Below, piece by piece: positions 1,119 through 52,746 of a stretch of DNA of 64,000 nucleotides. The stretch spans positions 1 to 64,000 of the forward strand of contig JAILZY010000009.1 of NCBI GenBank assembly GCA_023512255.1, in the 5' to 3' direction. Position numbers and translations under genes: made by a program. Positions within the stretch are counted from its first letter, which is position 1. Each line of letters opens with the position of its first letter. The notes beneath the pieces are model-generated. The model worked only from the letters and a program-made list of their open reading frames with translations, was not told the DNA's origin and searched no databases. This DNA comes from a bacterium (GTDB lineage: Bacteria > SZUA-182 > DTGQ01).

Positions 1119-2540
1119 GTGAAGAAAGAAGACGAAATTGCAGCAACGAATAAACTCTTGCGGCTGATCCGGGGAGAAAAGGATTTGTCGGATGAGCAAA
1201 CTGGCCGAGGTTTCCTTGAGGCCGGGGAGGAGAAGGCCAAGGCGCCGGCAGAGCCCGCCGAGGGCGGGGAGATTTATCCTTTCGGCAGCCAGCTGAATAA
1301 ATCGGATTTGCCGCCAGAGTCATCATCTGATTTAGATTTTTCGGATGAGGCGGAGCGGAAGGAATATCCGTCAGATGAGCCGAGAGCCTTCAATTCTGCT
1401 TCTACTCAGGGAGCTTCGCCGGGGAGCCGCTCTGAGGAACAGGAGAGGGGGCGAGAGGAACATTTTTCGTCTCAGCGGTTTTTATCTGCCGCGACCTTGG
1501 ACGGTGAAGAGATTTACCGCAGGCAGGGGGAAATCAAGGGAAATATTAAATCAACCCTTGGGATTGACATTGGCTCCCGCTATATCAAGTATGTCCAGAT
1601 CCAGCGCAGGATGAATAAATATCACCTCATTTCCTGGGGGATCATTAAAAATGCTAATCATAAGCCGAGCGATTGGTCTTCGGCCATTGGGACGCTCAGA
1701 GGGCTTTTCAGTGCAGCTCCTTTGGCTCATACTAGGGTTATCAGCGCGGTTGGCGGATCATCGGTAATTGTACGGCACATTAAATTTCCTCCTCTTTCGA
1801 ATAAAGAGATTGAAGAGTCGATCCGCTGGGAGGCAAAAAGTTACGTTCCTTTTCCGCTACGGGATGTCAATATTGATTATCAGATCTTGGGCAGGTCAGC
1901 GAAAAATAAACAAATGGATGTGCTGCTAGTGGCAGTGACTAAAAAACTTTTGCAAGAGCATCTTGATATGTTGCAGAGTATTCAGCTCAAGGCGAGTGTG
2001 GTAGATATAAATTCCTTGGCTCTGGTCAATGCCTTCTCGGCTAATAATCCGCTAAAGGATGAGCGGGCAGTGGTGCTTTTGGATATCGGCGCGTCAACTA
2101 CGATCTTAAATATCTACAAAAAGGATGATCTCTACCTAACAAGAGACATCCCGATCGCTGGAGATGCTTTTACTAATGCTATCCAAAAGGAAAAACAAAT
2201 TAGCTTCCAAGAGGCGGAAAGTATCAAACATGATAAAAATTTTGACCTAAACATCATTCGGCCTACCCTGGATAACTTGACCAAGGAAATAAGACGATCT
2301 CTTATCTATTATGATAATCAGACTTCTCGCCGGGGATTCAGCCGTCTTGTTCTCACCGGCGGCAGTTGTCGGATGGCTGGGCTAGTCAGCTATTTTTCAG
2401 AAGAGCTTGGCTTGGCCGTAGAAATTGCGAATCCTTTTCAGGCTGTTCAGATCGATCCTAGGAAGTTTGCGCAGGATGAGTTGCAGTTTTTTTCCCCGCA
2501 GATGGCGCTCGCTTTTGGGCTAGCCAGCAGGGTGAGTTAA
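1119..2540 (+). CDS. pilM: PilM-like actin-fold pilus assembly protein with long N-terminal extension
   Basis: PilM/MshI proteins are actin-like cytoplasmic ATPases that bind the N-terminal tail of PilN and link the inner-membrane platform to the motor. The actin-fold part begins near residue 147 with the phosphate-1 motif GIDIGSRYIKYVQ. The adenosine-type motif LVLTGGSCRMAGL lies near the C-terminus. Residues 1 to about 140 form a charged, low-complexity region rich in E, S, P and G that usual PilM proteins (about 350 residues) lack. The start is GTG at 1119. The pilN gene follows within 20 nt. The extension could be a regulatory linker or could partly reflect an upstream misassigned start, although no better internal start with a strong ribosome-binding site was seen. 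Confidence 0.88.
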   Translation: MKKEDEIAATNKLLRLIRGEKDLSDEQTGRGFLEAGEEKAKAPAEPAEGGEIYPFGSQLNKSDLPPESSSDLDFSDEAERKEYPSDEPRAFNSASTQGASPGSRSEEQERGREEHFSSQRFLSAATLDGEEIYRRQGEIKGNIKSTLGIDIGSRYIKYVQIQRRMNKYHLISWGIIKNANHKPSDWSSAIGTLRGLFSAAPLAHTRVISAVGGSSVIVRHIKFPPLSNKEIEESIRWEAKSYVPFPLRDVNIDYQILGRSAKNKQMDVLLVAVTKKLLQEHLDMLQSIQLKASVVDINSLALVNAFSANNPLKDERAVVLLDIGASTTILNIYKKDDLYLTRDIPIAGDAFTNAIQKEKQISFQEAESIKHDKNFDLNIIRPTLDNLTKEIRRSLIYYDNQTSRRGFSRLVLTGGSCRMAGLVSYFSEELGLAVEIANPFQAVQIDPRKFAQDELQFFSPQMALAFGLASRVS

Positions 2541-2560
2541 CCTATTAGGTGGTGCCAGCT

Positions 2561-3166
2561 ATGAATAATACCTTTACCATAAATGTGTTGACGCCGGGGC
2601 AGAGGAAGGCTCGGTACGGAGAAGCGAATAAGGCGATCTTTTTTCTTCTGCCGTTAATTATCTGGGGAGGGCTGGCTTACAGCCTCTATGCTGGCGTTTA
2701 TGTACCAACCTGCCAGCAGATTATACGGCAGCAGGACACCCTTAGGGAGCTCGACCTGGAATTGACTCAGATCAGTGCCTTGCAGACGAAGCTTGAAAAT
2801 CAGCAGGCGCTCTGTCTGGCTGCATCGGCAGAGCGGATTGATTGGAGCTCAAAACTTATCTCTATAAGTCTTCTAATTCCAGAGGATATCTGGATCACGA
2901 AAATCCTTTTTGCTGAAGAAAAATCTACCGATAAGCCGCCTGTGCTTGAGATTTATGGGCAAACGGTTTCCCGGTCCAATCGAGAGTCTTTGGACAAGAT
3001 CGCTATCTTTATTGAAGAAATGAACCGGAATGATTCTTTCTGTCAAGATTTTTCTCCGCTAGAATTCGTTTACTCTCAATTGCAGAGTGAGCACAAGAAT
3101 ATCGTAGATTTTAAGCTCTCCTCTCTAGCCAGGACAGATCGAGCAGATGGAGGAAATAAGCAGTAA
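2561..3166 (+). CDS. pilN: PilN-like inner-membrane pilus assembly protein
   Basis: This is a bitopic inner-membrane protein of the PilN/MshJ type that forms the alignment complex with PilM and PilO. The short cytoplasmic N-terminus NTFTINVLTPGQRKARY is followed by one membrane helix (about residues 28-47), a periplasmic coiled coil and a ferredoxin-like C-terminal part. The ATG at 2561 is chosen over the GTG at 2549 because AGGTGG (2547-2552) lies 8 nt before it. The 3' end overlaps the next gene by 20 nt, which implies translational coupling. The PilM-binding motif at the very N-terminus (INxLP-type) is not exact here; INVLTP is the closest match. Confidence 0.82.
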   Translation: MNNTFTINVLTPGQRKARYGEANKAIFFLLPLIIWGGLAYSLYAGVYVPTCQQIIRQQDTLRELDLELTQISALQTKLENQQALCLAASAERIDWSSKLISISLLIPEDIWITKILFAEEKSTDKPPVLEIYGQTVSRSNRESLDKIAIFIEEMNRNDSFCQDFSPLEFVYSQLQSEHKNIVDFKLSSLARTDRADGGNKQ

Positions 3167-4226
3167 TATGGCCTATTCAGCACCGAAAACATCTATGGTC
3201 ATTACCCTCGGGGGGTGTCTGTTAGTCAGCAGTCTCTTTTTTTACTTTATTTATATGCCCAATCGAAGGGTTTTGGATCAGAACCTCTCCCAAATAAGAG
3301 AGCTTGAGCAGAAAATTCAGGTTCAAACAATAGCGGTTAAGAAACTGCGGGAGAAAATCGCCTCTTTCAATACCCGACGCACCCATCTGAATTATTTTAA
3401 CCGCTTGCATCTTGAGGAATCAGATCGTGTCCCCTATTTGCTGAAAAGTTTGACTAAGGAAGCCAATGCTCTGGGTATTAAATTTCTGTCCGTCGATCCC
3501 CAGCAGCCTGAGAACAAGAATTCCTACCGCAAATATATCTTTAAGGTTGAGGTGCGGGCCACATATCCACAAATGCTACGCTTTTTAAATTGTATTGAAA
3601 ACAAACTGAAACTAAACATTGATAGGTTCAATCTAAGCCAGACAGAGCCATTGGAGAGGCTGCAGGAAGTTCAGGACAGCCAGAGTGAGAGTTACAAGCA
3701 GGTAACGGCTAAAATTTATCTTAATACCCTAGAGATGGAAGATGATAAGTTAAAGGATTTTGACAGTCTGGCCCAGGTACGGGATTTCTACCTTAATCCC
3801 AATTCAGCGGCTGGTACCTCCCCTCAATTTGAGGAGGAAGAGCAGGAGAGTTTGATTGCCCAGGCTACAGAGACAGACCCCTTTCATCCGCAGGAGTATA
3901 TTTTGGCTTCTCTTGCACCTTCTCTATTTTCCTCTTCATCATCAGGAAGTGCTGGCCGGCGGCGGATAGAGGAGAAGCCGCCGGTGCTGGTTAAAAAGGA
4001 TGATCAGGAGCTGGTGCTAAAAGCCATTATTGATTTTGAAAAAGAGCGCCGGGCTATTCTTGGCCAGGATGTAGTCAAGAGCGGAGATATTTTGGAAAAT
4101 ACACAAATAGGTAACCGGCTAGTAAATATGAAGGTTCTAAGCATTGGAGAAAATACCGTAACTTTGGGAGACGGACAAGAGCGCTATACCCTGAAGCTGT
4201 CTCCTAATCCGGTTCAATTTAAATAG
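3147..4226 (+). CDS. pilO: PilO-like protein with a C-terminal PilP/GspC-like region
   Basis: This protein has one N-terminal membrane helix (about residues 17-37), then a coiled coil (about 40-75) and a PilO-type periplasmic domain to about residue 200. The remaining residues hold an acidic, serine-rich linker and a C-terminal segment (ILGQDVVKSGDILENT, then VNMKVLSIGENTVTLGDGQ). That segment resembles the small beta-domain of PilP/GspC proteins that contacts the secretin. At 359 residues it is much longer than a usual PilO (about 200), and no separate pilP gene follows, so a PilO-PilP fusion is inferred. It overlaps pilN by 20 nt and is followed closely by the secretin gene. The fusion assignment rests on pattern and gene order only. 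Confidence 0.75.
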   Translation: MEEISSNMAYSAPKTSMVITLGGCLLVSSLFFYFIYMPNRRVLDQNLSQIRELEQKIQVQTIAVKKLREKIASFNTRRTHLNYFNRLHLEESDRVPYLLKSLTKEANALGIKFLSVDPQQPENKNSYRKYIFKVEVRATYPQMLRFLNCIENKLKLNIDRFNLSQTEPLERLQEVQDSQSESYKQVTAKIYLNTLEMEDDKLKDFDSLAQVRDFYLNPNSAAGTSPQFEEEEQESLIAQATETDPFHPQEYILASLAPSLFSSSSSGSAGRRRIEEKPPVLVKKDDQELVLKAIIDFEKERRAILGQDVVKSGDILENTQIGNRLVNMKVLSIGENTVTLGDGQERYTLKLSPNPVQFK

Positions 4227-4236
4227 GGAGATGTGT

Positions 4237-5859
4237 ATGAAACCTCAGAGGAGAAAATGTTGGCTTTGGATGCCATCCCTCTTGATTCTTTCGTTGAGCA
4301 GTCTTGTATCTGTGTTTGCCGTGAGCCCCTGTTGTCAGGCCGGGAGAAGAAAACCGTATGCTTCTGATATTTCCGATCATGATTTCCCTTATGAAAACTG
4401 TTCTCTTAAAGCCGTTGACGCTGATGTCAGGAATGTGTTGCGGGCCTTTGCTGACAAGTATAAACTGAGCATCATCATGAGCGATGATGTTCAGGGAAAG
4501 GTCAGCATTATTGTTAATAATATCCCTGTCAAGGAGGCTTTTGAAAGCATCTTAAACTATGCAGACCTTGGTTATATAAAAGAAGGAGCCATTTATCGGA
4601 TCAGGCCGCTCGAAAAGCTGCTTAACCAGGAGAGTATGAATCAGCGTATTGAGGAGCTTCGGACCGAGGTTATCCCTTTAAAGTATGCCAATGCAGAGCG
4701 GCTGATACCCAATTTGACCAAGTTTAAATCAAACCTGCCTGAGGCTGTAGTTGATGCTGATAAATGGACTAATTCAGTGGTCATCAAAGATACTGTGCAG
4801 AAGATTGAAGAGATGAAAGCCTTGATTAGTCGGTTGGATGTGGCCGAGCCGGCTAAAGAGGTCAAGGAACTGACCCAATCGAGCAAGATTATTAAGCTTC
4901 ACTACCTCAAGTGCCAGGATGTGGCCAAGCTGAAGGCTCTTGAGGGGAAAGTCAGCGCTCATGAGCAAACTAACTCGGTGATCATTACTGATTTGCCGGA
5001 AAACATTGGTCGGCTGGCCTCAATTATAAGTGACTTGGATAAGCCGATACGCCAGATTCTGATTGACGCCAAGATTGTCGAGACAACGAAAAACTACAGC
5101 AACAGCTTAGGCATTCAGTGGGGAGGCCGCTATCATGCCAACCCACCATCAGGGAAAATCATGCCGACCATATCGGTCGGAGGTGCCATGGGAGGGATCA
5201 ATTACGATAATAGCTTAGCCAACTATGCGGTCAATTTGCCTGGATCAGTGGCCCCCTATGGTAGTGTCGATTTCCTACTTGGCCACCTCAAGGATAAAGT
5301 GGCTCTGAATCTTCGTCTCTCAGCCATGGAAGACAGTGGAAATGGGCGGATTATTTCTCAGCCCCGGATTATGGCTATGGATAATACCCGGGCTACGATC
5401 AGCAGCGGTGAGGTCATTCAACTGCCACCTGTGGCTAATAGTGGATCTACGGTCACGGTGGTGAGTGGTGGCACCACCAGTCAGGAAAACACTACTGCCA
5501 CTGAGAAGGAGGCTAAGACTAAGCTGGTTGTAACCCCTCACATCATTTCTGACAACCAGGTTAAGCTTACTATTAACATCAGCCGTGATACTCCAGACTT
5601 TAGCCGCACGATCAATAATGTTCCGGTTATTATCACCCGTGAGGCAGAAACTGAGCTTATTCTCGAGAATGGGGAAACCGCGGTTATCGGAGGATTAGCG
5701 ATTAGCGATGTGTCTCAGACACAGTCTGGCATCCCCTGGCTCAGTAAGATTCCTTTCTTGGGATGGCTATTTAAAGGGAAAGCAAATAGGTCTGAATATG
5801 GAGAGTTGCTCGTTTTTATTACCCCTCATATTATTGAGGGTCAGCAGGCTAAAAATTAG
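4237..5859 (+). CDS. pilQ: Secretin (PilQ/MshL/GspD family)
   Basis: This is the outer-membrane secretin channel of the pilus/secretion machine. An N-terminal signal peptide (MKPQRRKCWLWMPSLLILSL and on to about residue 30) is followed by an STN-type N0 domain (VDADVRNVLRAFADKY). Two N1-type ring domains come next (VIPLKYANAERLIPNL and IIKLHYLKCQDVAKL), then the beta-barrel secretin domain with the signature GIPWLSKIPFLGWLFKG near the C-terminus. The ATG at 4237 is preferred to 4231 because GGGAG (4226-4230) would be too close to the latter. The mature N-terminus contains cysteines but no clear lipobox. Its position after the PilO-like gene agrees with the PilP-like tail of that protein acting as secretin partner. 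Confidence 0.9.
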   Translation: MKPQRRKCWLWMPSLLILSLSSLVSVFAVSPCCQAGRRKPYASDISDHDFPYENCSLKAVDADVRNVLRAFADKYKLSIIMSDDVQGKVSIIVNNIPVKEAFESILNYADLGYIKEGAIYRIRPLEKLLNQESMNQRIEELRTEVIPLKYANAERLIPNLTKFKSNLPEAVVDADKWTNSVVIKDTVQKIEEMKALISRLDVAEPAKEVKELTQSSKIIKLHYLKCQDVAKLKALEGKVSAHEQTNSVIITDLPENIGRLASIISDLDKPIRQILIDAKIVETTKNYSNSLGIQWGGRYHANPPSGKIMPTISVGGAMGGINYDNSLANYAVNLPGSVAPYGSVDFLLGHLKDKVALNLRLSAMEDSGNGRIISQPRIMAMDNTRATISSGEVIQLPPVANSGSTVTVVSGGTTSQENTTATEKEAKTKLVVTPHIISDNQVKLTINISRDTPDFSRTINNVPVIITREAETELILENGETAVIGGLAISDVSQTQSGIPWLSKIPFLGWLFKGKANRSEYGELLVFITPHIIEGQQAKN

Positions 5860-5923
5860 CTCAAAAATTCATGATTGCAGAAAAAAATGAGCATTTAAAA
5901 TAAAAAAGCTAGGGAAAATTCAC

Positions 5924-7654
5924 ATGTCGAAGGGATATCGACAAGAATATGATCTTCTTGGCAATCTTCTGATCAAGGATAACCTGATCACCAAAGGGCA
6001 ACTGGAAGAGGCCTATCGGAAACACAAGCATACTGGTGAGCGGCTGGGCGACATTTTGCTGAACATGGGCTTGATTTCCGAACAGGACCTTTTGAAAACC
6101 TTGGCTAAACAGCTCCATATCGAGTATATTGATCGTGAGGGGCTTAGCCATGTAAATCAGGCTCTTGCTCAGATGATTCCAGAATCAATGGCCAGAAAGT
6201 ACCTAGCCCTTCCCTTTTCTGTTAATGACAACACCTTGACGGTGGTCATGTCAGACCCCTTTGACCTTCTGGCCATTGATAACATTCAAAAAGTTACTCA
6301 ACGGGAAATCAGACCAGCTATTGCCGCTAAACGAGATATCGAAGATTCGATCAATCTCCTGTATAAAAAGCGGGAGGAGGCTCAACTTCTGGAGGTTCTC
6401 GAAGACCTCCACGCTCAGCACCTCGAAATCCAGGAACGTAAGGAAGAGGAAAAGGTTGATCTTGAGTCTTTAAAGCAGCAGGTTGAGGATGCTCCAGTGG
6501 TTAAGCTGGTTGATTATATCATCAGCAACGCCATTTCTAAAAGGGCTAGTGATATCCATATTGAGCCCACAGAAAAGGAACTGCTGATTCGCTACCGGAT
6601 AGATGGGGTTTTGCATAAGATTCTCTCCCCATCCAAACAACTGCAATCAGCTATTATCTGCCGGATCAAGATCTTGTCCAATTTGGACATTGCCGAGCGA
6701 AGGCTTCCCCAGGATGGAAGGTTTACGGTCAAGTTCGGCAGTCGAGAGATTGATCTTCGAGTCTCTAGCGTGCCAACGATTTTTGGTGAGAAGATCGTTT
6801 TACGGCTCCTGGAGAAAAGCTCTTTCAACTTCCGCTTGGAAGAGCTGGGTATGGACAATCATCAGCTGAAGATCTTCAGGCATCATATGTATCTGCCCTA
6901 CGGCATGATTCTCCTGACTGGCCCTACGGGAAGCGGAAAATCAACCACCCTCTATTCCATCCTCTCCCGGATACGATCACCGGAGAAAAATATCATCACC
7001 ATTGAAGATCCGGTAGAGTACCAGATAGAGGGAATAAACCAGATCCAGGCGAATTTCAAGATCGGCCTTTCCTTTGCTCAGGGCCTGCGGTCAATCCTGC
7101 GGCAGGATCCCGACGTCATTATGGTTGGCGAGATCAGGGATCAGGAAACTGCTGAGATTTCGATCCGCTCTGCTCTGACCGGGCATCTTGTTTTCAGCAC
7201 GCTGCATACTAACGATGCGGTCGGAACCCTTATCCGCCTAATTAATATGGGCATTGAACCCTTTCTGGTTTGTAACTCCCTGACCTTGGCTGTGGCTCAG
7301 CGGCTGGTGCGTCGCATCTGCGTCCATTGCAAGGAGGCCTATACTCCTAGCGAAACCCTGATCGAACACTTTGGTCTACAGCCTGACCGGAATGAAAGTG
7401 TAGTTTTCTATCGTGGTCGGGGCTGTGAGAAATGTAACTATACCGGATATTTTGGCCGGATTGGCATATTCGAGCTCCTGGTAGTGAATCAATCTATTCG
7501 GAATCTAGTTCTCCAGAACGCTTTGCCTGATATCATCAAGAGAAAGGCTATTGAAAATGGAATGACTACCTTGCTGGAGAGCGGCCTGCACAAAGTGATT
7601 CAGGGGATTACCTCTATTGAGGAAATTTTCAGAACATGCATGGAGGAAGATTAG
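5924..7654 (+). CDS. pilB: PilB/GspE-type assembly ATPase
   Basis: This hexameric ATPase powers extension of the pilus or pseudopilus. The N-terminal GspE domain (about residues 5-150, DLLGNLLIKDNLITKGQLE) precedes the motor domain. The motor contains Walker A GPTGSGKSTT near residue 333, an Asp box TIEDPVEYQIEG, Walker B DPDVIMVGEIRDQET and a His box TGHLVFSTLHTND. A zinc-type tetracysteine motif (CVHC and CEKC) follows, as in GspE and PilB. Its length of 576 residues is typical. It is followed after 6 nt by the platform protein. The order ATPase-platform after the secretin matches MSHA-type clusters (MshE, MshG), so MshE is an equally good name. Confidence 0.93.
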   Translation: MSKGYRQEYDLLGNLLIKDNLITKGQLEEAYRKHKHTGERLGDILLNMGLISEQDLLKTLAKQLHIEYIDREGLSHVNQALAQMIPESMARKYLALPFSVNDNTLTVVMSDPFDLLAIDNIQKVTQREIRPAIAAKRDIEDSINLLYKKREEAQLLEVLEDLHAQHLEIQERKEEEKVDLESLKQQVEDAPVVKLVDYIISNAISKRASDIHIEPTEKELLIRYRIDGVLHKILSPSKQLQSAIICRIKILSNLDIAERRLPQDGRFTVKFGSREIDLRVSSVPTIFGEKIVLRLLEKSSFNFRLEELGMDNHQLKIFRHHMYLPYGMILLTGPTGSGKSTTLYSILSRIRSPEKNIITIEDPVEYQIEGINQIQANFKIGLSFAQGLRSILRQDPDVIMVGEIRDQETAEISIRSALTGHLVFSTLHTNDAVGTLIRLINMGIEPFLVCNSLTLAVAQRLVRRICVHCKEAYTPSETLIEHFGLQPDRNESVVFYRGRGCEKCNYTGYFGRIGIFELLVVNQSIRNLVLQNALPDIIKRKAIENGMTTLLESGLHKVIQGITSIEEIFRTCMEED

Positions 7655-7660
7655 TCACCT

Positions 7661-8908
7661 ATGCCTGTTTTTCAATATAAAGCTAAGCGGTTTGATGGAA
7701 AAACCATAGCCGGCGTCATCGAGCTCGATAGTGAAATGACGCTTATCGACCGTCTCCACCGCAAGAATGCTGTTCTCTTGTCAGCCAGTCAGATTGAGGA
7801 TGGCAGACAGGCTAAAATTACCAAGGCTGGCTTTGGAGAAAAACTGCGGACCAGATTTAACAAAATCTTCAATTCCATATCTTCTAATGAAATTTTACTC
7901 TTTACTCATCAGATGGCCGCCATGTTCGGAGCTGGAGTCCCCCTCTCCCGCTGTCTTGAATCATTAGGCAAGGATTTAAAAAACAAAAAATTCCGCGATA
8001 TTGTTTCCGAAATTCACCGCGATATTGAAAGTGGGGACGATCTATCCGAGGCTATGGCCAAGCATCCTCATGTTTTCAGCAAACTCTACATTAACATGAT
8101 CCATGCCGGTGAATCGAGCGGGACACTAGCAACCATTCTCAGCCAGTTATCCTTTTATCAGGAAACAGCCACAGAGGTACGGGGCAAGCTCAAGGCTGCT
8201 TTGGCTTACCCCATCGCTCTGATCTCATTCACTCTGGTGGTCATGTTAATCTTGCTTTTGGTCATTATCCCCCAGTTCAATCAGATCTATAGCCGGCTAA
8301 ATACTCCTCTGCCGCTGCCAACAAAAATTTTGATGAAAATCAGCACAACCATCAGGTATGGGTATTACTGGTACCTGATAGGTTTCTTCAGCCTGTGGGT
8401 CTTGTGGGGGCTTATCTTGCAAACTTCATGGGGAAGATATACCTGGGATAGACTCAAATTGCGAATTCCTATTATCGGTCCTATTATACTTAAAGGGATT
8501 TTCACTCAATTTTCAAGAACCCTTTCCATTCTCTTGAAAAGCGGCTTGCCTGTTATCCAGTCACTGCGAATTATCAGTGAGTCAACTCCTAATGCGTATA
8601 TCAAGAAAAAGGTTGAGGAGTGTGCAATCAAGATACAAAAAGGAGCTACGATCTCCGAGGCCTTCGCCGAAGGGGAGGTTTTCCCTGAACTCATGCTCCA
8701 GATGATTTCTTCAGGTGAGGAGTCAGGGACCCTATTTGCCATGCTGGCCAAAGTGGCTGACTTTTATCAGCAACAGGTAAGTACCACTGTAGCTACGCTG
8801 ACTTCCATTATAGAGCCTGTATTAATTGTCATTATGGGTCTGATTATTGGCTCAATCGCCATCTCGGTCTTCCTGCCGATTTTCAAGATGGGAGGAGCAT
8901 TTCACTAG
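7661..8908 (+). CDS. pilC: PilC/GspF-type inner-membrane platform protein
   Basis: This polytopic inner-membrane protein works with the assembly ATPase. It has the family start MPVFQYKAKRFDGKTIAG and two homologous T2SF domains, one around residues 75-195 (MAAMFGAGVPLSRCLESL) and one around 280-400 (LSILLKSGLPVIQSLRII). Membrane helices lie near residues 180-205 and 225-250 and at the C-terminus. Its length of 415 residues is normal for the family. It ends the core machine. No gene with a type III (prepilin-type) signal peptide is present in the window, so the pilins or pseudopilins must be encoded elsewhere. Confidence 0.93.
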   Translation: MPVFQYKAKRFDGKTIAGVIELDSEMTLIDRLHRKNAVLLSASQIEDGRQAKITKAGFGEKLRTRFNKIFNSISSNEILLFTHQMAAMFGAGVPLSRCLESLGKDLKNKKFRDIVSEIHRDIESGDDLSEAMAKHPHVFSKLYINMIHAGESSGTLATILSQLSFYQETATEVRGKLKAALAYPIALISFTLVVMLILLLVIIPQFNQIYSRLNTPLPLPTKILMKISTTIRYGYYWYLIGFFSLWVLWGLILQTSWGRYTWDRLKLRIPIIGPIILKGIFTQFSRTLSILLKSGLPVIQSLRIISESTPNAYIKKKVEECAIKIQKGATISEAFAEGEVFPELMLQMISSGEESGTLFAMLAKVADFYQQQVSTTVATLTSIIEPVLIVIMGLIIGSIAISVFLPIFKMGGAFH

Positions 8909-44169: not shown

Positions 44170-47100
44170 ATGAAGAGATGCTCTTTTTTCATTCGAGAAA
44201 GGAAAGGGGTTGCGGTTTTTGGGGCATTGATCCTCTGTTTTCTTTTGGTCTTAGTCTCAAAAAGGATACTTTGCCCCAAAACCGTGGCTGCTGATGTTCA
44301 TTTTCAGGATGCGGCCACTCATGCCTGGCCGTGCCAGGGGCATGATTCGGGGCATAGTGGCCAGAGCCAGTTTTTGGGAAGCCAAACCGATACCTTGAAG
44401 TGGAGATGGTCAGCAGGGGGGAAGGTTTACTCATCCCCTGCTGTTGGGGCTGATGGCACAGTCTATATCGGCAGCGACCGTGGTTGGGTCGTTGCTCTTC
44501 GAGTCCGTGATGGGTGTCCCATCTGGAGCTTTGAAACCGCAGGCAGTGTGTATTCATCCCCTGCTCTGGGAGCAGACGGCACGGTGTATATCGGCAGCCT
44601 AGATGGTCGGCTCTATGCCCTGCGAGGCCAGGATGGCAGCTTGAAGTGGAGCTACAGATCTGGTGATGAGATTTATGGCTCGCCTGCCATTGGGGCAGAT
44701 GGCACGGTGTATATCGGCAGCCTAGATGGTCGGCTCTATGCCTTGCGAGGCCAGGATGGCAGCTTGAAGTGGAGCTATAGAACAGGATATTGGATTTATG
44801 GCTCGCCTGCCGTTGGAGCAGACGGCACGGTGTATATTGGCGGCCTCGATGGTCGGCTCTATGCCCTGCGAGGCCAGGATGGCAGCTTGAAGTGGAGCTA
44901 TAGAGCTGGGGATGAGATTTATGGCTCGCCTGCCATTGGGGCAGATGGTACAGTATATATTGGCAGCCTCGATGGTCAGCTCTACGCCTTGCGAGGCCAG
45001 GATGGGAGCTTGAAGTGGAGCTACAGAGCTGGGGGCGGCATATCCTCATCACCAGCTATTGGAGCAGATGGCACGGTGTATATCGGCAGTCTCGATGGCT
45101 ATCTCTATGCTTTTGGTTCTCCGGCAGGATTGGGAGCTGATAGCATCTGGCCATGCTGGAGGCTTAATGCTCAGCATACTGGCCAAAGTCTCCTGGTCGG
45201 GCCGAAAACCCCTACCCTGAAATGGAAGTGCCAGATCGGGGGAGAGGTATACTCTTCGCCAATTGTTGCCCTTGATGGCACGATCTATATTGGAAGCTAC
45301 GACTCTAAGATCTATGCCCTCAAACCTGATGGTAGTGGTGTGAAGTGGAGCTATCAAGCTGGGGGGCAGGTGAGGTCAACGCCTGCCATTGCCAGCGATG
45401 GTACCATCTATGCGGCAGCTTTTGATGGCCTGGTTTATGCTCTCAAATCATTGAATGGCAGTCTGAAGTGGAGTTATCAGACCGGCAACCAGATCTATTC
45501 CTCACCATCTGTTGGGCCCGACGGCACGGTCTATATTGCCGGGCTTGACGGCAAGGTTTATGCCCTCAAGCCTGATGGGAGCCTGAAGTGGAGCTATAAA
45601 GCTGATAGCGGTATCTACTCTTCACCGGCTCTTAGTCAAGAAGGGCTGGTTTATGTCGCCAGCGGTGATGGAAAGCTCTATGCCCTAAATTCCCAGGATG
45701 GCAGACTGGTTTGGAGTTATCAGACCAGAGAGCGGATCTACTCATCACCTGCTCTTGATGCTTATGGCACGCTCTATATCGGCGGTCTCAACGGCCGTCT
45801 TTATGCCCTAAGCAGTGCTGACGGGAGCCTGAGATGGAAGTATCAGACTGGCGGTGCGCTTTACTCCTCACCCGCGGTCGGTTCTAACGGCAGTGTGTAT
45901 ATTGGCAGCCTCGATGGTCGGATTTATGCTCTTAACGCTCAGGATGGTGGTCTTGTGTGGAGCTATCAGACCGGCGGAGGAATCTATTCTTCGGCAGCGC
46001 TGGCCGCGGATGGAATAATTTATATTGGCAGCCTCGATGGTCGGATTTATGCTCTTAACGCTCAGGATGGCGGTCTTGTGTGGAGCTATAAGGCCGCAAG
46101 CCGCATTGATTCCTCACCAGCTATAGCTGACGGGGGCATAGTTTATGTCGCAGACTTGAGCGGCACAGTTTATGCCTTCGCTGATCCAGCACTGGATAAG
46201 TCGCCTCAACTGAGCTGTCCAGGCCCGATCGTGGTCTTAGCTACTGGTCCTAAAACTAAGGTATATTTCCCCGAAGCCATAGCTATTGATGATCAGGACC
46301 CTAAGCCGCAGATAACTTACGACCATGTCTCTGGGTCTGAATTTCCGGTTGGGACAACTATAGTTAAGGTTACGGCCAGGGATAATTCGGGTAATGTAAG
46401 CCTTTGTTCCTTTCCGGTAACGGTTAAGGATATCGAGCCGCCTAGGATTCTTTGCCCCTCTGATATTGTTGTCTCAGCCACTGGGCCAAAGACGCGGGTA
46501 AATTTTGTGGCTACAGCTTCTGACAATACAGATCAAAGCCCACAGATAGTCTCCGATTATCAGCCAGACTCTGAGTTTCCCCTTGGAGTTACGAAGGTCA
46601 AAGTAATGGCCAAAGACGCCTCGGGTAATTCCAGCACCTGTTATTTTACAGTAACAGTCAAGGATACAACCCCGCCTCTAATCATCTGCCCATCCGATAT
46701 GATTGTCTCCGCCGCTGGCCCAAAGACCAGGGTGAATTATTCGGCTACCGCGAGTGATGATATTGATCCTAAGCCTCAGATACTTTATGATCCAGCCCCT
46801 GGCTCAGAGTTTCCCCTTGGCACGACTCAGGTTACGGCTACAGCCAAAGACTCATCAGGCAATTCGACTACCTGCTCTTTTAAGGTTACTGTCCGCGATA
46901 GCACCGCGCCCATAATCAGATGTCCTCAGAGTCTGGTTATTCCGGCTGAGGGCCGCATGACTAGGGTAAGTTATACGGTTACAGCTACGGATAATGTAGA
47001 CCAGGAGGTGAAAGTTATCTGTGAGCCTGCCTCTGGTTCCGAGTTCACTCTTGGAACACACACAGTTAGGGCATCGGCTATTGATTCGGCTGGAAATTCT

Positions 47101-48516
47101 ACGGACTGCACATTTGAGGTCCTGGTGAAAGACATCGAGCCGCCTATAATCAGGTGTCCGGCCACGGTTGAAGCTACGGCTTCTGGCTCTCTGACTAAGG
47201 TTAATTTTACGGCTACAGCCGAAGATAAAGTTGATCCAAGCCCCCGGCTGATTTACGACCATGTACCGGGGTCAGAATTTCCTGTTGGCATAACGACGGT
47301 CAAGGTTACTGCCATTGACTCGGCAGGCAACTCAAGCATAAGCTACATTACTGTGAATGTAAAAGACCCTGGCGCTCCTACTCTTATCTGTCCGGCTGAT
47401 ATGATTGTCTCAGCCACTGGGGCAAAGACGAGGGTAGATTTTTCAGCTCAGGCCACAGATGCCACAGACCCTAATCCGACCGTAATCTACAACCCAGCTC
47501 CCGGCTCAGAATTTCCCCTTGGGACAACATGGGTTACAGTTGTGGCCAAAGACTCATCGGGCAATTCGAGCACCTGCTCTTTTAAGGTTACGGTGCGGGA
47601 TAGTGAGCCGCCACGAATCATCTGTCCGGCTGATATGATTGTCTCAGCCACTGGGGCAAAGACTCGGGTAGATTTTTCAGCTCAGGCCACAGATGCCGCA
47701 GACCCAAGACCGCAGATAGTCTACGACCCTGCGCCTGGCTCAGAATTTCCCCTTGGGACAACGAGGGTTACGGTTGTAGCTACTGATGCTTCGGGCAATA
47801 GGGCAACCTGCACCTTTAACGTAGTTGTCCAGGATACTGATTTGCCCTTGGTGGCCCTGACTCTTGGCGAAAAACCTCCATATGATACCAGTCAGGGGAT
47901 GAGAATCTTTTACACAGCCAGCGACATCTGCGATCCTGCCCCCAAGGTCAAGGTGGAACTTTCCAACAACGGCGACCCTGCGGTCGATATTACCGCCTCA
48001 TCACCCATTCTGCTCAGCCTGCAAGAGCTGGCCGGTAAAAATACGGTTACCGTGACCGCAACCGATGCTTGCGGCAATGTAAGAAAAGAGACAGTGAGTT
48101 TTGAGGTGACTCTCAAGCTTATTGGAGATCAGATCGTGGTCAAACCTGAAACCCTGAGAATCTATCCGGGCATATTTACTGTCTCTTTGGCCTTCCCACC
48201 GCCATACGATGTCTCAACTATCCGGGAGGTAGAAGCCGATGGAGCTCGTTATAAAAAGATCACCTACCAGAGTGAAAACAAGAAGACAATTTGTGAATTC
48301 AATAGATCCGACATCAAGACTCTACCTTTGGATAACCAATTCGAGATTAGAGGCTCCTTTGTTTACAAAGGGACAGAATGCACCTTTTTCGGCACTGACA
48401 CTATTCAGTGGGTGCGGCAGATACCAACTCAGCAGAATGGATGGTTGAGTGGTGGTGGGCGGCGGCCAGTTTTTGATGGAACTATATGTCATGGGCTGCT
48501 GTGTGATGAGTGGTGA
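44170..48516 (+). CDS. Giant extracellular protein: two PQQ beta-propellers plus HYR domains
   Basis: This is a 1448-residue exported protein. An N-terminal membrane/signal helix (about residues 14-36) is followed by two BamB-like propellers. Each opens with a WPC-x-HTGQS or similar cap (WPCQGHDSGHSGQS near 52, WPCWRLNAQHTGQS near 330). The first has six and the second eight blades of about 40 residues (SSPAVGADGTVYIGS, then LDGRLYALR and GSLKWSYR). From about residue 675 to 1225 there are seven HYR (Ig-like) domains with CP-x-x-IVVSATGPKT starts and GTTxVxVxAxDxSGN ends. An eighth, diverged Ig-like unit and a C-terminal region follow. Neighbouring blades are almost identical in DNA (44560-45110), indicating recent expansion. 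AGGAGGGG precedes the ATG. Confidence 0.9.
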   Translation: MKRCSFFIRERKGVAVFGALILCFLLVLVSKRILCPKTVAADVHFQDAATHAWPCQGHDSGHSGQSQFLGSQTDTLKWRWSAGGKVYSSPAVGADGTVYIGSDRGWVVALRVRDGCPIWSFETAGSVYSSPALGADGTVYIGSLDGRLYALRGQDGSLKWSYRSGDEIYGSPAIGADGTVYIGSLDGRLYALRGQDGSLKWSYRTGYWIYGSPAVGADGTVYIGGLDGRLYALRGQDGSLKWSYRAGDEIYGSPAIGADGTVYIGSLDGQLYALRGQDGSLKWSYRAGGGISSSPAIGADGTVYIGSLDGYLYAFGSPAGLGADSIWPCWRLNAQHTGQSLLVGPKTPTLKWKCQIGGEVYSSPIVALDGTIYIGSYDSKIYALKPDGSGVKWSYQAGGQVRSTPAIASDGTIYAAAFDGLVYALKSLNGSLKWSYQTGNQIYSSPSVGPDGTVYIAGLDGKVYALKPDGSLKWSYKADSGIYSSPALSQEGLVYVASGDGKLYALNSQDGRLVWSYQTRERIYSSPALDAYGTLYIGGLNGRLYALSSADGSLRWKYQTGGALYSSPAVGSNGSVYIGSLDGRIYALNAQDGGLVWSYQTGGGIYSSAALAADGIIYIGSLDGRIYALNAQDGGLVWSYKAASRIDSSPAIADGGIVYVADLSGTVYAFADPALDKSPQLSCPGPIVVLATGPKTKVYFPEAIAIDDQDPKPQITYDHVSGSEFPVGTTIVKVTARDNSGNVSLCSFPVTVKDIEPPRILCPSDIVVSATGPKTRVNFVATASDNTDQSPQIVSDYQPDSEFPLGVTKVKVMAKDASGNSSTCYFTVTVKDTTPPLIICPSDMIVSAAGPKTRVNYSATASDDIDPKPQILYDPAPGSEFPLGTTQVTATAKDSSGNSTTCSFKVTVRDSTAPIIRCPQSLVIPAEGRMTRVSYTVTATDNVDQEVKVICEPASGSEFTLGTHTVRASAIDSAGNSTDCTFEVLVKDIEPPIIRCPATVEATASGSLTKVNFTATAEDKVDPSPRLIYDHVPGSEFPVGITTVKVTAIDSAGNSSISYITVNVKDPGAPTLICPADMIVSATGAKTRVDFSAQATDATDPNPTVIYNPAPGSEFPLGTTWVTVVAKDSSGNSSTCSFKVTVRDSEPPRIICPADMIVSATGAKTRVDFSAQATDAADPRPQIVYDPAPGSEFPLGTTRVTVVATDASGNRATCTFNVVVQDTDLPLVALTLGEKPPYDTSQGMRIFYTASDICDPAPKVKVELSNNGDPAVDITASSPILLSLQELAGKNTVTVTATDACGNVRKETVSFEVTLKLIGDQIVVKPETLRIYPGIFTVSLAFPPPYDVSTIREVEADGARYKKITYQSENKKTICEFNRSDIKTLPLDNQFEIRGSFVYKGTECTFFGTDTIQWVRQIPTQQNGWLSGGGRRPVFDGTICHGLLCDEW

Positions 48517-49399: not shown

Positions 49400-50040
49400 C
49401 TTGAGGATCGAGCAAAAACCTGTTATAATTTACTATAATGCTTCAACTTTGGTTTTTTCAGGCACAATTTTTGTTTATGGTGTTATGAAAAAGCGTTTCA
49501 GCTTAAAGATATCTACAACTACGCCGACAGCTACTTGCGGGAATGGTTTCCCAAATTACCTTCCTATGTAGCCTTTGTCCAGCGTATTAATCGGTTCGAT
49601 AGCCTATTTCCCATGCTTATTGAACTCATTCTCAATTATTTTTCCGAATCTGACCTCACCCCCAAAATCCGGCTTATCGACTCTATGCCCATAATCTTAG
49701 CTAAGGCCAAAAGAAGTGCCAAGGCTAAGGTTGCTAACCAGCTGGCACAATAAAAGATATTGTGCCTCTAAGGATATCTACTATTACGGCGTCAAACTCC
49801 ATATCTTGGGCCTCAAAAGAGAAGGAACCCTTCCTCTGCCACAGTATATTGGCCTCACCTCAGCAAGTGAGCAGACGGGAGTGTTTTTGATCAAATTGCC
49901 CACCTATTGAAAGGAGAAGAAGTCTATGCAGACAAAGCCTACATTGACGATGCCATGAAACAACTTCTTGAGCAAGAACAACAAGTGCAGATCCATACCC
50001 CAATTAAAAAGAAAAAGGTCAAGAAAAAAGAGAGGAAAAT
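49400..50040 (+). pseudogene. Decayed, 3'-truncated transposase (remnant 2, IS982-like DDE type)
   Basis: The frame pieces KAFQLKDIYNYADSYLREWF and PKLPSYVAFVQRINRF (about 49490-49590), IRLIDSMPIILAKAKRS (49670), SKDIYYYGVKLHILGLKREG (49770) and then LLKGEEVYADKAYIDDAMKQ (49905) follow the order of a DDE transposase. Frameshifts near 49743 and 49890 separate them. The sequence breaks off in a lysine-rich stretch at 50040, directly before the protease gene, so the 3' end is missing. IS982 is my best family match but is not certain. An ancient insertion next to remnant 1 made this a transposon graveyard. Confidence 0.78.
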
Positions 50041-52746
50041 ATGAAACGCAGATTAAAGAACATACTGATGATATTGCTTATCTTAACACTGTATGCCGTT
50101 ATCGCTGAAGCCAGCGATCCACTTCCCGTAACCATAAAACCGGTAAGCGTTGTACCGGTTATGAAACAGTTTAAGATTCCTTATGTGCCGGTCGAAAATT
50201 TGACAATTTCCTCACTTACTGCCCAGCAGTCGGTAGCGCTTAAGAACTTTAAGCAGACCTTGCCGGGGATAGCAGCCCTGAAGTCTTATTGTAATCTGGC
50301 GACCTATCAGACCTCCGTCAAAAATCAGCTACCACGTGGGAGCTGTGCAAGTTTTGCCTTTCTCGGGGCAATAGAGGCCTATTATAAAAGACATTACAAC
50401 CTGGAATTAGACCTGTCTGAAGAGTATTTCATCCATATCGTACATTCCACTCAACCCACTTGTAACCCTGACCTTCTTCACGAGAATATCTCCTCCTGGT
50501 GCGGCGCAAGTTGTCTTACCACACCGATGACCTCGGGAGAGGTTTATATGGCTCTTAACGGCATCGCTATTCCAGAAGAAAAATATGCCCCTTACTTTGG
50601 CGATGGGAGTACTTACCCTGACCATAGCCAGGCAGATCTGGATAAAATCGTCTCCGACAGTGGCCTTGTCTGTGACTCTTGTTCCGAGTCTGCTTCTACG
50701 GCGATCCCTCTTCTATCTCAGAAAGCGGTTGATAACTATGAATACGACCCGAGATATATCCCTCTTGAGGCCAGGAAAAACGCCCGCTACGGCGCGACAA
50801 AAGTGCAGCTCTTATCGGTTGCGGATACTCAGGATACAGCCTTCCTGGAACAGTGTCTGTGGGGTGGTCATGAGGTTGATATATTTCTTGATCTCAATAG
50901 ACTGGATATTGGCGATGGTAATTTTTTCAGCAATGGAACTCCCGTAAGCAAGCATCCTGACGGCAACCCCATTGCCGTATGGCCAAAAGATGGAGTTAAC
51001 GAAGGCCACATAGGTCATACCATGCTATTGATAGGCTATGATAAAACCAGACAGTTATTTTTACTCAAAAATTCCTGGGGCAGTTATTTACCTTACTTCT
51101 GGGTGCCGTATAATTACGTTAAGAATTGCAGTACGGGCGGAGTGATCGTCCTCGATGTCAGGGACCCGAACCTCGGCCCATCCCCGGAAGCCATGTGGAT
51201 CGGTAAATGGAATATGGATCATGACGGATGGCTGGGAGAGCTGGTCATTCGAAGGACCAGAAGCAGAGCGCAGAGTAATACCGGAGATATTTACACGGAA
51301 ACTACGCTGGGTACTCCCGCCAGGCTAGGCACCTATTACTCACAGGATGGCACTGCCCATGCTGTAACAGGCTATATTTCCGATAGTGTAGGGTATAAGA
51401 TCAAACTGTTTATCGACTTTGATAACCCCGAAGGCGCTCCGCAAGCGGAGAGCACGCCAATTACCCTGAAAGGACAGGAATTCGATCTCGAAATGTTCGC
51501 TTCACCATCAAATTCGACTACCTTCGGAAACTACGCGGCCGGCACTACGGTCTGGCGCAATTATATGTTTGGTGCCCTCATATCCCGCCCCTCTGCACCC
51601 ATCCGGATCAAGCATATTCCCGGAACCTTCTCTCTCGATGACTGGAAAAAGAGCTTTATGCTGTTCTATAGCGGCGGAAGTACGGCATATTTTAAAATAA
51701 CCGATATAGCCTCTTCAGAGAGCGGTGCCTACTATTCAGTAACTGACACCTATAACGGAACTGTCGGGCATCATTGCGGAATCGACAAGAAGCAGACAAA
51801 CCGCCTGTTCTTCTTCGGAGCCTTCCAGCCCGCTTTATTCTACCACACCCATGAAACCGGTATTGCGAGCGGTTTGGGTGTTTTTGGTATATCCCTCCCT
51901 TCTTCTCTCATCGTCAAAAAACCCACCCTCACCGTCCTCCCCTATCTTAATTCTATGGCAATATTTTCAATCACCTGCGATACCGAGGGAGCTGTGATCC
52001 ACTACACGACGGATGGAAGTGAGCCAACCGAAAACTCGCCAATTTATACCGAACCCCTGGTCCTGCCTCGCGACAGTGTCATCAAGACCAAAACCTTCAT
52101 AGATGACCTGCCAGCCAGTGAGACTGTCACAGGAACTTATAACTGGGCTGGAGTATGCGAAGAAGGTGATATCGGAGAACTGGATATTGAAGGAAGGAAA
52201 GGAATCATAGGAGATAAAGTCAAAATCCCGGTGAAGGTTCAAGTTGCAGGCAAGAAAATCTTCAGCCTTGGCTTTGAAGTTGTTTATGATCCGAGTGTCT
52301 TGAACTATACAGGCTATGAGAGAGGAAACCTGACTGCTGACTTTGATATGTTCGAGGTTAACCCGTTAAATCCGGGGAGAATACTCACAGGCGGATTCTC
52401 CAACAAAGGCACTGATGCCAATGGTTACCTGGTCTGGTTAAACTTCGAGGTTGTGGGAGGCCGGGAAAACGAGTGTTATCCACTGCTCCTGAAAAATGTG
52501 AATGACGATCTAAGCAGCCTTTGCAGAACCGACGGATGCTTTTGCCTCAATAAGGCCTGTAATGGCGATCTCAATGGGGATGGAGCAATTACCCCGTCCG
52601 ATGCACTCGCGGCCTTCAAGTGTTATCTCGGCTCCGGCCCCTGTTCAGATTGTTCTGATGTCAATAGAGATGGTGGGGTAACACCGTTGGATGCCCTTTG
52701 CATTTTTAAAAAGTATCTTGGCCAGAGTTCCTGTTTAGACGACTGA
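50041..52746 (+). CDS. Secreted papain-like cysteine protease with cohesin and dockerin modules
   Basis: This is a 901-residue exported protein. The signal peptide (about residues 1-24) is followed by a propeptide and a C1A-type peptidase domain. Cys102 in PRGSCASFAFLGAIEAYY, His326 in GHIGHTMLLIGYD and Asn344 in LLKNSWGSY form the expected catalytic triad. A middle region of about 270 residues of unknown fold precedes a chitobiase C-terminal-like unit (IHYTTDGSEPTENSPIYTEP, about 645-700). A cohesin domain follows (about 708-830; FSLGFEVVYDPSVLNYTGYE). Last is a type I dockerin with two calcium-loop repeats (GDLNGDGAITPSDALAAFK and SDVNRDGGVTPLDALCIFK, about 839-895). Possessing both partners suggests chain-like assembly or attachment to other dockerin or cohesin proteins. 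The ribosome-binding site AGAGAGGA lies 5 nt upstream. Confidence 0.9.
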   Translation: MKRRLKNILMILLILTLYAVIAEASDPLPVTIKPVSVVPVMKQFKIPYVPVENLTISSLTAQQSVALKNFKQTLPGIAALKSYCNLATYQTSVKNQLPRGSCASFAFLGAIEAYYKRHYNLELDLSEEYFIHIVHSTQPTCNPDLLHENISSWCGASCLTTPMTSGEVYMALNGIAIPEEKYAPYFGDGSTYPDHSQADLDKIVSDSGLVCDSCSESASTAIPLLSQKAVDNYEYDPRYIPLEARKNARYGATKVQLLSVADTQDTAFLEQCLWGGHEVDIFLDLNRLDIGDGNFFSNGTPVSKHPDGNPIAVWPKDGVNEGHIGHTMLLIGYDKTRQLFLLKNSWGSYLPYFWVPYNYVKNCSTGGVIVLDVRDPNLGPSPEAMWIGKWNMDHDGWLGELVIRRTRSRAQSNTGDIYTETTLGTPARLGTYYSQDGTAHAVTGYISDSVGYKIKLFIDFDNPEGAPQAESTPITLKGQEFDLEMFASPSNSTTFGNYAAGTTVWRNYMFGALISRPSAPIRIKHIPGTFSLDDWKKSFMLFYSGGSTAYFKITDIASSESGAYYSVTDTYNGTVGHHCGIDKKQTNRLFFFGAFQPALFYHTHETGIASGLGVFGISLPSSLIVKKPTLTVLPYLNSMAIFSITCDTEGAVIHYTTDGSEPTENSPIYTEPLVLPRDSVIKTKTFIDDLPASETVTGTYNWAGVCEEGDIGELDIEGRKGIIGDKVKIPVKVQVAGKKIFSLGFEVVYDPSVLNYTGYERGNLTADFDMFEVNPLNPGRILTGGFSNKGTDANGYLVWLNFEVVGGRENECYPLLLKNVNDDLSSLCRTDGCFCLNKACNGDLNGDGAITPSDALAAFKCYLGSGPCSDCSDVNRDGGVTPLDALCIFKKYLGQSSCLDD

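Follow-up and report, generated by a model that had tools for sequence, protein, structure and literature searches.

Primary and adaptor scaffoldins routinely carry a cohesin and a dockerin on one chain, and cohesin-dockerin systems outside the cellulosome are known from genome surveys. ScaC of Ruminococcus flavefaciens, an adaptor scaffoldin, has one cohesin and one dockerin (PMC2930009). A peptidase is added to this pair in ScaO/ScaP of Acetivibrio cellulolyticus and (Pseudo)Bacteroides cellulosolvens, which combine it with a single cohesin and a dockerin (PMC5590126, PMC3413522). Also from R. flavefaciens, the cysteine-peptidase-like protein RflaF_05439 bears an X-dockerin (PMC3573020), and in the cellulosome-like system of Ca. 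Stygibacter (Cloacimonadota) C25 and other peptidases possess C-terminal dockerins (PMC8542988). ANME archaea encode dockerin/cohesin proteins as well, in which both modules are united in a single chain (PMC9012536).

Architecture of the papain-like protease

The window analysed here, a stretch of 64,000 nucleotides from contig JAILZY010000009.1, encodes at positions 50041-52746 of the forward strand, on which the parts of the gene described below are also read, a secreted papain-like protease with a C-terminal cohesin-dockerin module (901 aa plus stop). From the open reading frame and Pfam, the order signal peptide, Peptidase_C1, CHB_HEX_C_1, Cohesin and Dockerin_1 can be deduced. The putative signal peptide, as read from the sequence, comprises residues 1-24 (MKRRLKNILMILLILTLYAVIAEA, 50041-50112) and is devoid of a lipobox. 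Abutting the gene start is a degraded transposase remnant (49451-50040; DDE_Tnp_1_3 fragment, E 0.002, with stops and frameshifts), and the protease gene may have arrived or moved with it.

The papain-like catalytic region (residues 88-375, 50302-51165) matches PF00112 at 27 bits against a cut-off of 20.7, split over two stretches. When aligned with bona fide papains of related genera, including those of the congener G001 and of G002 and G003, Gln96, Cys102 (GSCAS, 50344-50346), His326 (GHIGHT, 51016-51018) and Asn344 (KNSWG, 51070-51072) are in register, and the regions around the latter two match 3ois. This alignment and the Pfam score place the protein in peptidase family C1. The sequence-only reading of this DNA had claimed an intact Cys-His-Asn triad, and the alignment bears this out with Gln96 in addition; judged by these residues, the catalytic site is intact and the product a putative protease. 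The C1 domain is divergent in sequence, its Cys-His spacing is longer than in related papains, and a PF00112 scan of the whole own genome (G000) lists neither it nor any other C1 domain. No relative of the protease half was found in the eight other genomes of the class, and an orthologue was sought in G001 without finding one.

Following the protease, a middle region (residues 376-639, 51166-51957) matches no Pfam family and shows about 26% identity with a congener's dockerin protein (G001 C85) over two stretches of the latter. The adjoining CHB_HEX_C_1/Fn3_assoc unit (residues 640-697, 51958-52131) scores 55.1 bits against a cut-off of 22. Hence, the chitobiase-like unit noticed earlier is present, but a chitobiase-specific meaning is not warranted, as this is a common Ig/Fn3-like spacer module that says nothing certain about chitin.

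The cohesin (residues 712-836, 52174-52548), with the covarying pair Cys812 and Cys835, is a member of PF00963 (30.0 bits, cut-off 24.1), and the dockerin (residues 838-901, 52552-52743) belongs to the type I family PF00404 (28.9 bits, cut-off 22.9); both modules are also delimited by tandem and family profiles. From the dockerin alignment, calcium loop 1 (DLNGDGAITPSD, 52567-52602) and loop 2 (DVNRDGGVTPLD, 52657-52692) can be assigned, and the six family cysteines at tandem positions 129, 150, 157, 160, 176 and 187 are all found in the window dockerin. Against the tandem profile, which was partly built from this very module, the cohesin-dockerin module reaches 311 bits (E 4e-93). The 30-row family profile retrieves from PDB solved cohesins (5nrm, E 1.6e-8; 4ums, E 5e-8) as well as solved dockerins (2y3n, E 3e-6; 1ohz_B, E 2e-5), and with all Pfam domains above their cut-offs the initial assignment as a papain-like protease bearing cohesin and dockerin is confirmed. 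AF2 applied to the single sequence without an alignment gave a pLDDT of 34, a value that speaks neither for nor against these folds. The accompanying premise that the two modules normally reside on different proteins is overstated in view of the scaffoldins that routinely carry both.

Tails, partner proteins and gene pairs

A search for other cohesins and dockerins, which had been suggested as a check, yielded 21 cohesins and 19 dockerins by Pfam and 30 matches to the tandem-module profile in the own genome (3.83 Mb, 172 contigs, 96.6% complete). Genus profiles detect 26 genes encoding a cohesin and/or dockerin in G000 and 39 in G001; in 13 and 14 genes, respectively, the cohesin runs directly into the dockerin via a link of few residues. 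What had been presented as a single odd protein therefore shares a tail that is used on about 13 proteins of the genome. This tail is cysteine-rich ("..CYLGxGPCxxC..DALCLFKKYLGQPSCLD"), usually C-terminal and often ends in PSCLD. Its cohesin cysteines at tandem positions 101 and 124 covary, with both present in 18 rows, neither in 10 and only one in 2 (p 2e-6, counting rows uncorrected for relatedness), and this paired presence or absence suggests a disulfide inside the cohesin. A disulfide bridge from cohesin to dockerin was also considered and gained no good support, the pair 101-124 being the only strong one. Contamination as the source of the tails was rejected because they are spread over numerous contigs and found again in the congener. 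Within the genome sample, a large expansion of the cysteine-rich tail is confined to this genus, where two species carry it. Searching viral contigs gave one weak dockerin match for the tail and none for the window protease, and genome contigs searched with the tail returned three weak ordinary dockerins.

The residues at known specificity positions, likewise proposed for checking, show that the calcium loops are kept and that the pattern differs from clostridial type I. Asp is present at loop positions 1 and 12 in all 46 dockerins, and positions 10, 14, 17 and 21 are P, L, F and L in 36-40 of the 46 in both repeats, with mostly A/Q/S at position 11, frequent K/R at 18 and G at 22. The clostridial type I pattern is S(T/S) at 10-11 and K(R/K) at 17-18 (PMC3413522), whereas here P plus mostly A/Q/S and F plus K/R occupy these pairs, placing the dockerins outside that specificity group. 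Judged by these positions, all dockerins are of one class unlike the clostridial ones, and the near symmetry of both repeats would permit dual binding. On the cohesin side, fused and scaffold modules share (S/A)-x-G-x-(E/D) on the strand equivalent to residues 37-41 (beta-3) of the CipA cohesin, in which N37 and D39 contact the dockerin; the N37/D39 register rests on the family-profile alignment to solved cohesins. The motif is compatible with one common specificity for fused and scaffold cohesins, although the shared residues may stem from common descent instead of binding.

A Pfam scan of 25 cohesin/dockerin proteins of G000 reveals C1 and C25 peptidases, VWA, RHS, beta-helix, HYR and MopE units, PQQ-like propellers with Kazal units, and Lcl_C with PKD. 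The suggested search for dockerin-bearing CAZymes came out negative, as no catalytic glycoside hydrolase is found on these 25 proteins. Likewise, they show no CBM over cut-off and at most two cohesins per protein. Dockerin-bearing glycoside hydrolases and a large multi-cohesin scaffoldin with CBM, which characterise a cellulosome, are thus missing from the proteins scanned. A gingipain-type C25 peptidase with propeptide and cohesin-dockerin tail is encoded in both species (L044:4490-7159 and L134:5206-8310). At L128:8608-11607, a CotH kinase-like protein with lamin-tail domain and cohesin-dockerin tail adjoins a protein with cohesin and CHB_HEX; CotH-like proteins have been reported from cellulosomes, too (PMC12484212). 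The window also encodes, at 44170-48516, a secreted 1448-aa protein with PQQ-like propeller repeats and seven HYR units which lacks a dockerin, unlike propeller proteins elsewhere in the genome that are dockerin-tailed.

Cohesin-only proteins occur in both species, among them a two-cohesin protein with lipobox-like N-terminus and no dockerin, probably a lipoprotein, a Gly-Tyr-rich protein and a HYR protein with aromatic-rich tail. Gly-Tyr- or Trp-rich low-complexity tails of about 100-220 aa, the kind of which is conserved between species, terminate the cohesin-only proteins L055:1652-2803, L138 (G001 C13), L045:3219-6494 and L054:396-6296. In the cohesin tree, a moderately supported split (86/79) largely divides fused from scaffold-type modules, and the fused group also takes in some cohesin-only rows. 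Some proteins possess two fused-class cohesins, of which one is not next to the dockerin, and others carry this class without any dockerin.

Cohesin genes adjoin dockerin genes more often than chance. Assuming random order of 3400 and 4700 genes, respectively, about 0.19 same-strand neighbouring pairs are expected in G000 and 0.32 in G001, compared with 4 observed in the former, one of them counting a dockerin fragment at a contig end, and 5 in the latter. All nine pairs are complementary, one gene contributing the cohesin and its neighbour the dockerin, and the order dockerin / two-cohesin / dockerin gene is common to both species. An operon of a small cohesin protein and a papain-cohesin-dockerin protease is kept in three related genera (G001, G002 and G003), with 52-55% identity of the protease between them, and in a sample of 386 genomes the full-length operon protease is restricted to these three. 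Outside the window's class, a beta-helix cohesin-dockerin protein adjoins a cohesin-only gene in G032, and cohesin beside dockerin is found sporadically in other genomes (for example, G066, G216 and G346), often in the order cohesin-dockerin-cohesin. Next to the window gene, no cohesin-only gene is present.

A proposed surface network and its alternatives

As assumed earlier, the organism appears to be diderm: the genome encodes three Omp85 proteins and seven secretins, from which a diderm cell can be deduced that possesses several systems of the type II or type IV pilus kind. One of the seven secretin loci lies within the window at 1119-8905, where PilM, PilO, secretin, T2SSE and T2SSF follow in a row, and is a type IV pilus or type II secretion operon. 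Folded, disulfide-bearing proteins would presumably be exported by a type II or pilus-like system. A search for SprA of type IX export gave no match, and neither did the control.

Docking onto surface cohesins outside the classical cellulosome, as the sequence-only reading had envisaged, can be predicted with good, albeit indirect, support from the cohesin-only proteins, the adjacency of cohesin and dockerin genes, the lack of catalytic glycoside hydrolases on the 25 scanned proteins and the diderm cell. With about an even chance of being correct, the protease is a client of a non-cellulosomal cohesin-dockerin surface network on a diderm cell, docking by its dockerin and accepting another client on its cohesin. 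Exported by means of the signal peptide, it would cross the outer membrane most plausibly via a type II-like system, and its dockerin would engage the cohesins of further proteins that are secreted or held by a lipid anchor, for example the probable lipoprotein with two cohesins. As the window cohesin is of the same apparent specificity class, it could in turn take the dockerin of another client, and a branched or chained surface network of C1 and C25 proteases, VWA, RHS, beta-propeller and beta-helix proteins would result. Self-assembly into chains would be compatible with the sequences: judged by the specificity positions the dockerins form a single class, and the beta-3 motif is common to fused and scaffold cohesins. 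The domains, the tail found throughout the genome, both cohesin classes, the pairing of genes and the uniformity of the dockerin residues are shown, whereas it is inferred what binds, which partners are chosen, by which route export occurs and what the network does.

Against the network count the missing cohesin-only neighbour of the window gene and the failure to find a relative of its protease half in the eight other genomes of the class. Considering the very short link to the dockerin, moreover, the cohesin could be a structural companion and not a free socket. Possibly, though this is rather doubtful, the fused cohesin has lost dockerin binding and become a structural partner like an X-module, leaving a one-plug client that does not form chains. 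The linker of only few residues in all tandems would agree with this, as would the separate grouping of most fused cohesins, their distinct cysteine pair and the X-dockerin of the R. flavefaciens cysteine-peptidase-like protein binding ScaE (PMC3573020); however, the beta-3 motif is the same in fused and scaffold cohesins, and fused-class cohesins are also placed away from the dockerin or on proteins without one. Mutual binding of cohesin and dockerin from one chain, in cis or between copies, by which the tail would be closed, autoinhibited or dimeric, is improbable: constant 1:1 pairing and spacing would suit such an arrangement, but the link seems too short to reach the usual face in cis, and the genome also encodes proteins with a cohesin alone and others with a dockerin alone, their genes being neighbours.

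In 40 of the 51 dockerin proteins of the genus, the dockerin is at most 25 aa from the C-terminus, frequently with the PSCLD end, as might be expected if the cysteine-rich tail were primarily an export or sorting signal for a dedicated secretion machine and cohesin binding secondary. This, too, is quite unlikely, as about one fifth of the genus dockerins are internal or N-terminal, complementary cohesin genes adjoin dockerin genes, and calcium loops as well as recognition positions are conserved. Returning to the network of docked clients, it may tentatively be extended to the whole lineage, which, being diderm, might have made a disulfide-stabilised, linker-poor dyad of single specificity its universal C-terminal connector, by which numerous secreted proteins of unrelated kinds, proteases among them, would polymerise into a single extracellular protein matrix anchored via lipoprotein cohesins.

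Relation to described systems

Among the systems introduced above, ScaO/ScaP come close in having peptidase module, single cohesin and dockerin on one secreted chain. They differ in the S8 peptidase with PPC modules and in belonging to true cellulosomes of Gram-positive bacteria, and the available portions of their description mention no cysteine-rich, linker-poor tail (PMC5590126, PMC3413522). With ScaC, the window protein shares one cohesin and one dockerin per chain, hence the layout of an adaptor scaffoldin. ScaC, however, contains no enzyme, and each of its two modules has a different binding partner; for the present system, a single common specificity is predicted. RflaF_05439 is similar in its cysteine peptidase-like modules and in a dockerin with companion module for delivery to the surface, which is predicted for the window protein, but has an NlpC/P60 fold instead of C1. 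Its companion is an X-module; in the window protein the companion also directly precedes the dockerin, but is a cohesin according to Pfam and PDB matches.

Ca. Stygibacter is likewise an uncultured lineage with dockerins on C25 and other peptidases, but has a 3,755-aa scaffoldin with repeated cohesins, CBMs and CTD as well as dockerins on GH18 and GH57. Such a large scaffoldin, CBMs, CTD and GH18 or GH57 dockerins were not found in the proteins scanned here. The ANME archaea resemble the present case as a non-cellulosic lineage with both modules on one chain, but differ in having up to five cohesins with a dockerin, clients that are often transporter binding proteins, and an archaeal envelope.

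Compared with these systems, the genus represents a compact case, with a uniform cysteine-rich connector, conserved scaffold proteins, conserved cohesin/dockerin gene pairs and no glycoside hydrolase on the scanned proteins, so that a small set of recombinant modules would suffice to test whether a single specificity builds a network. Dockerins with disulfides could, moreover, serve protein engineering as sturdier connectors. Cohesin and dockerin on one chain, even together with a peptidase as in ScaO/ScaP, are already known; new is that a cysteine-rich, linker-poor dyad serves a non-cellulosomal secretome as standard tail and has conserved sockets of its own.
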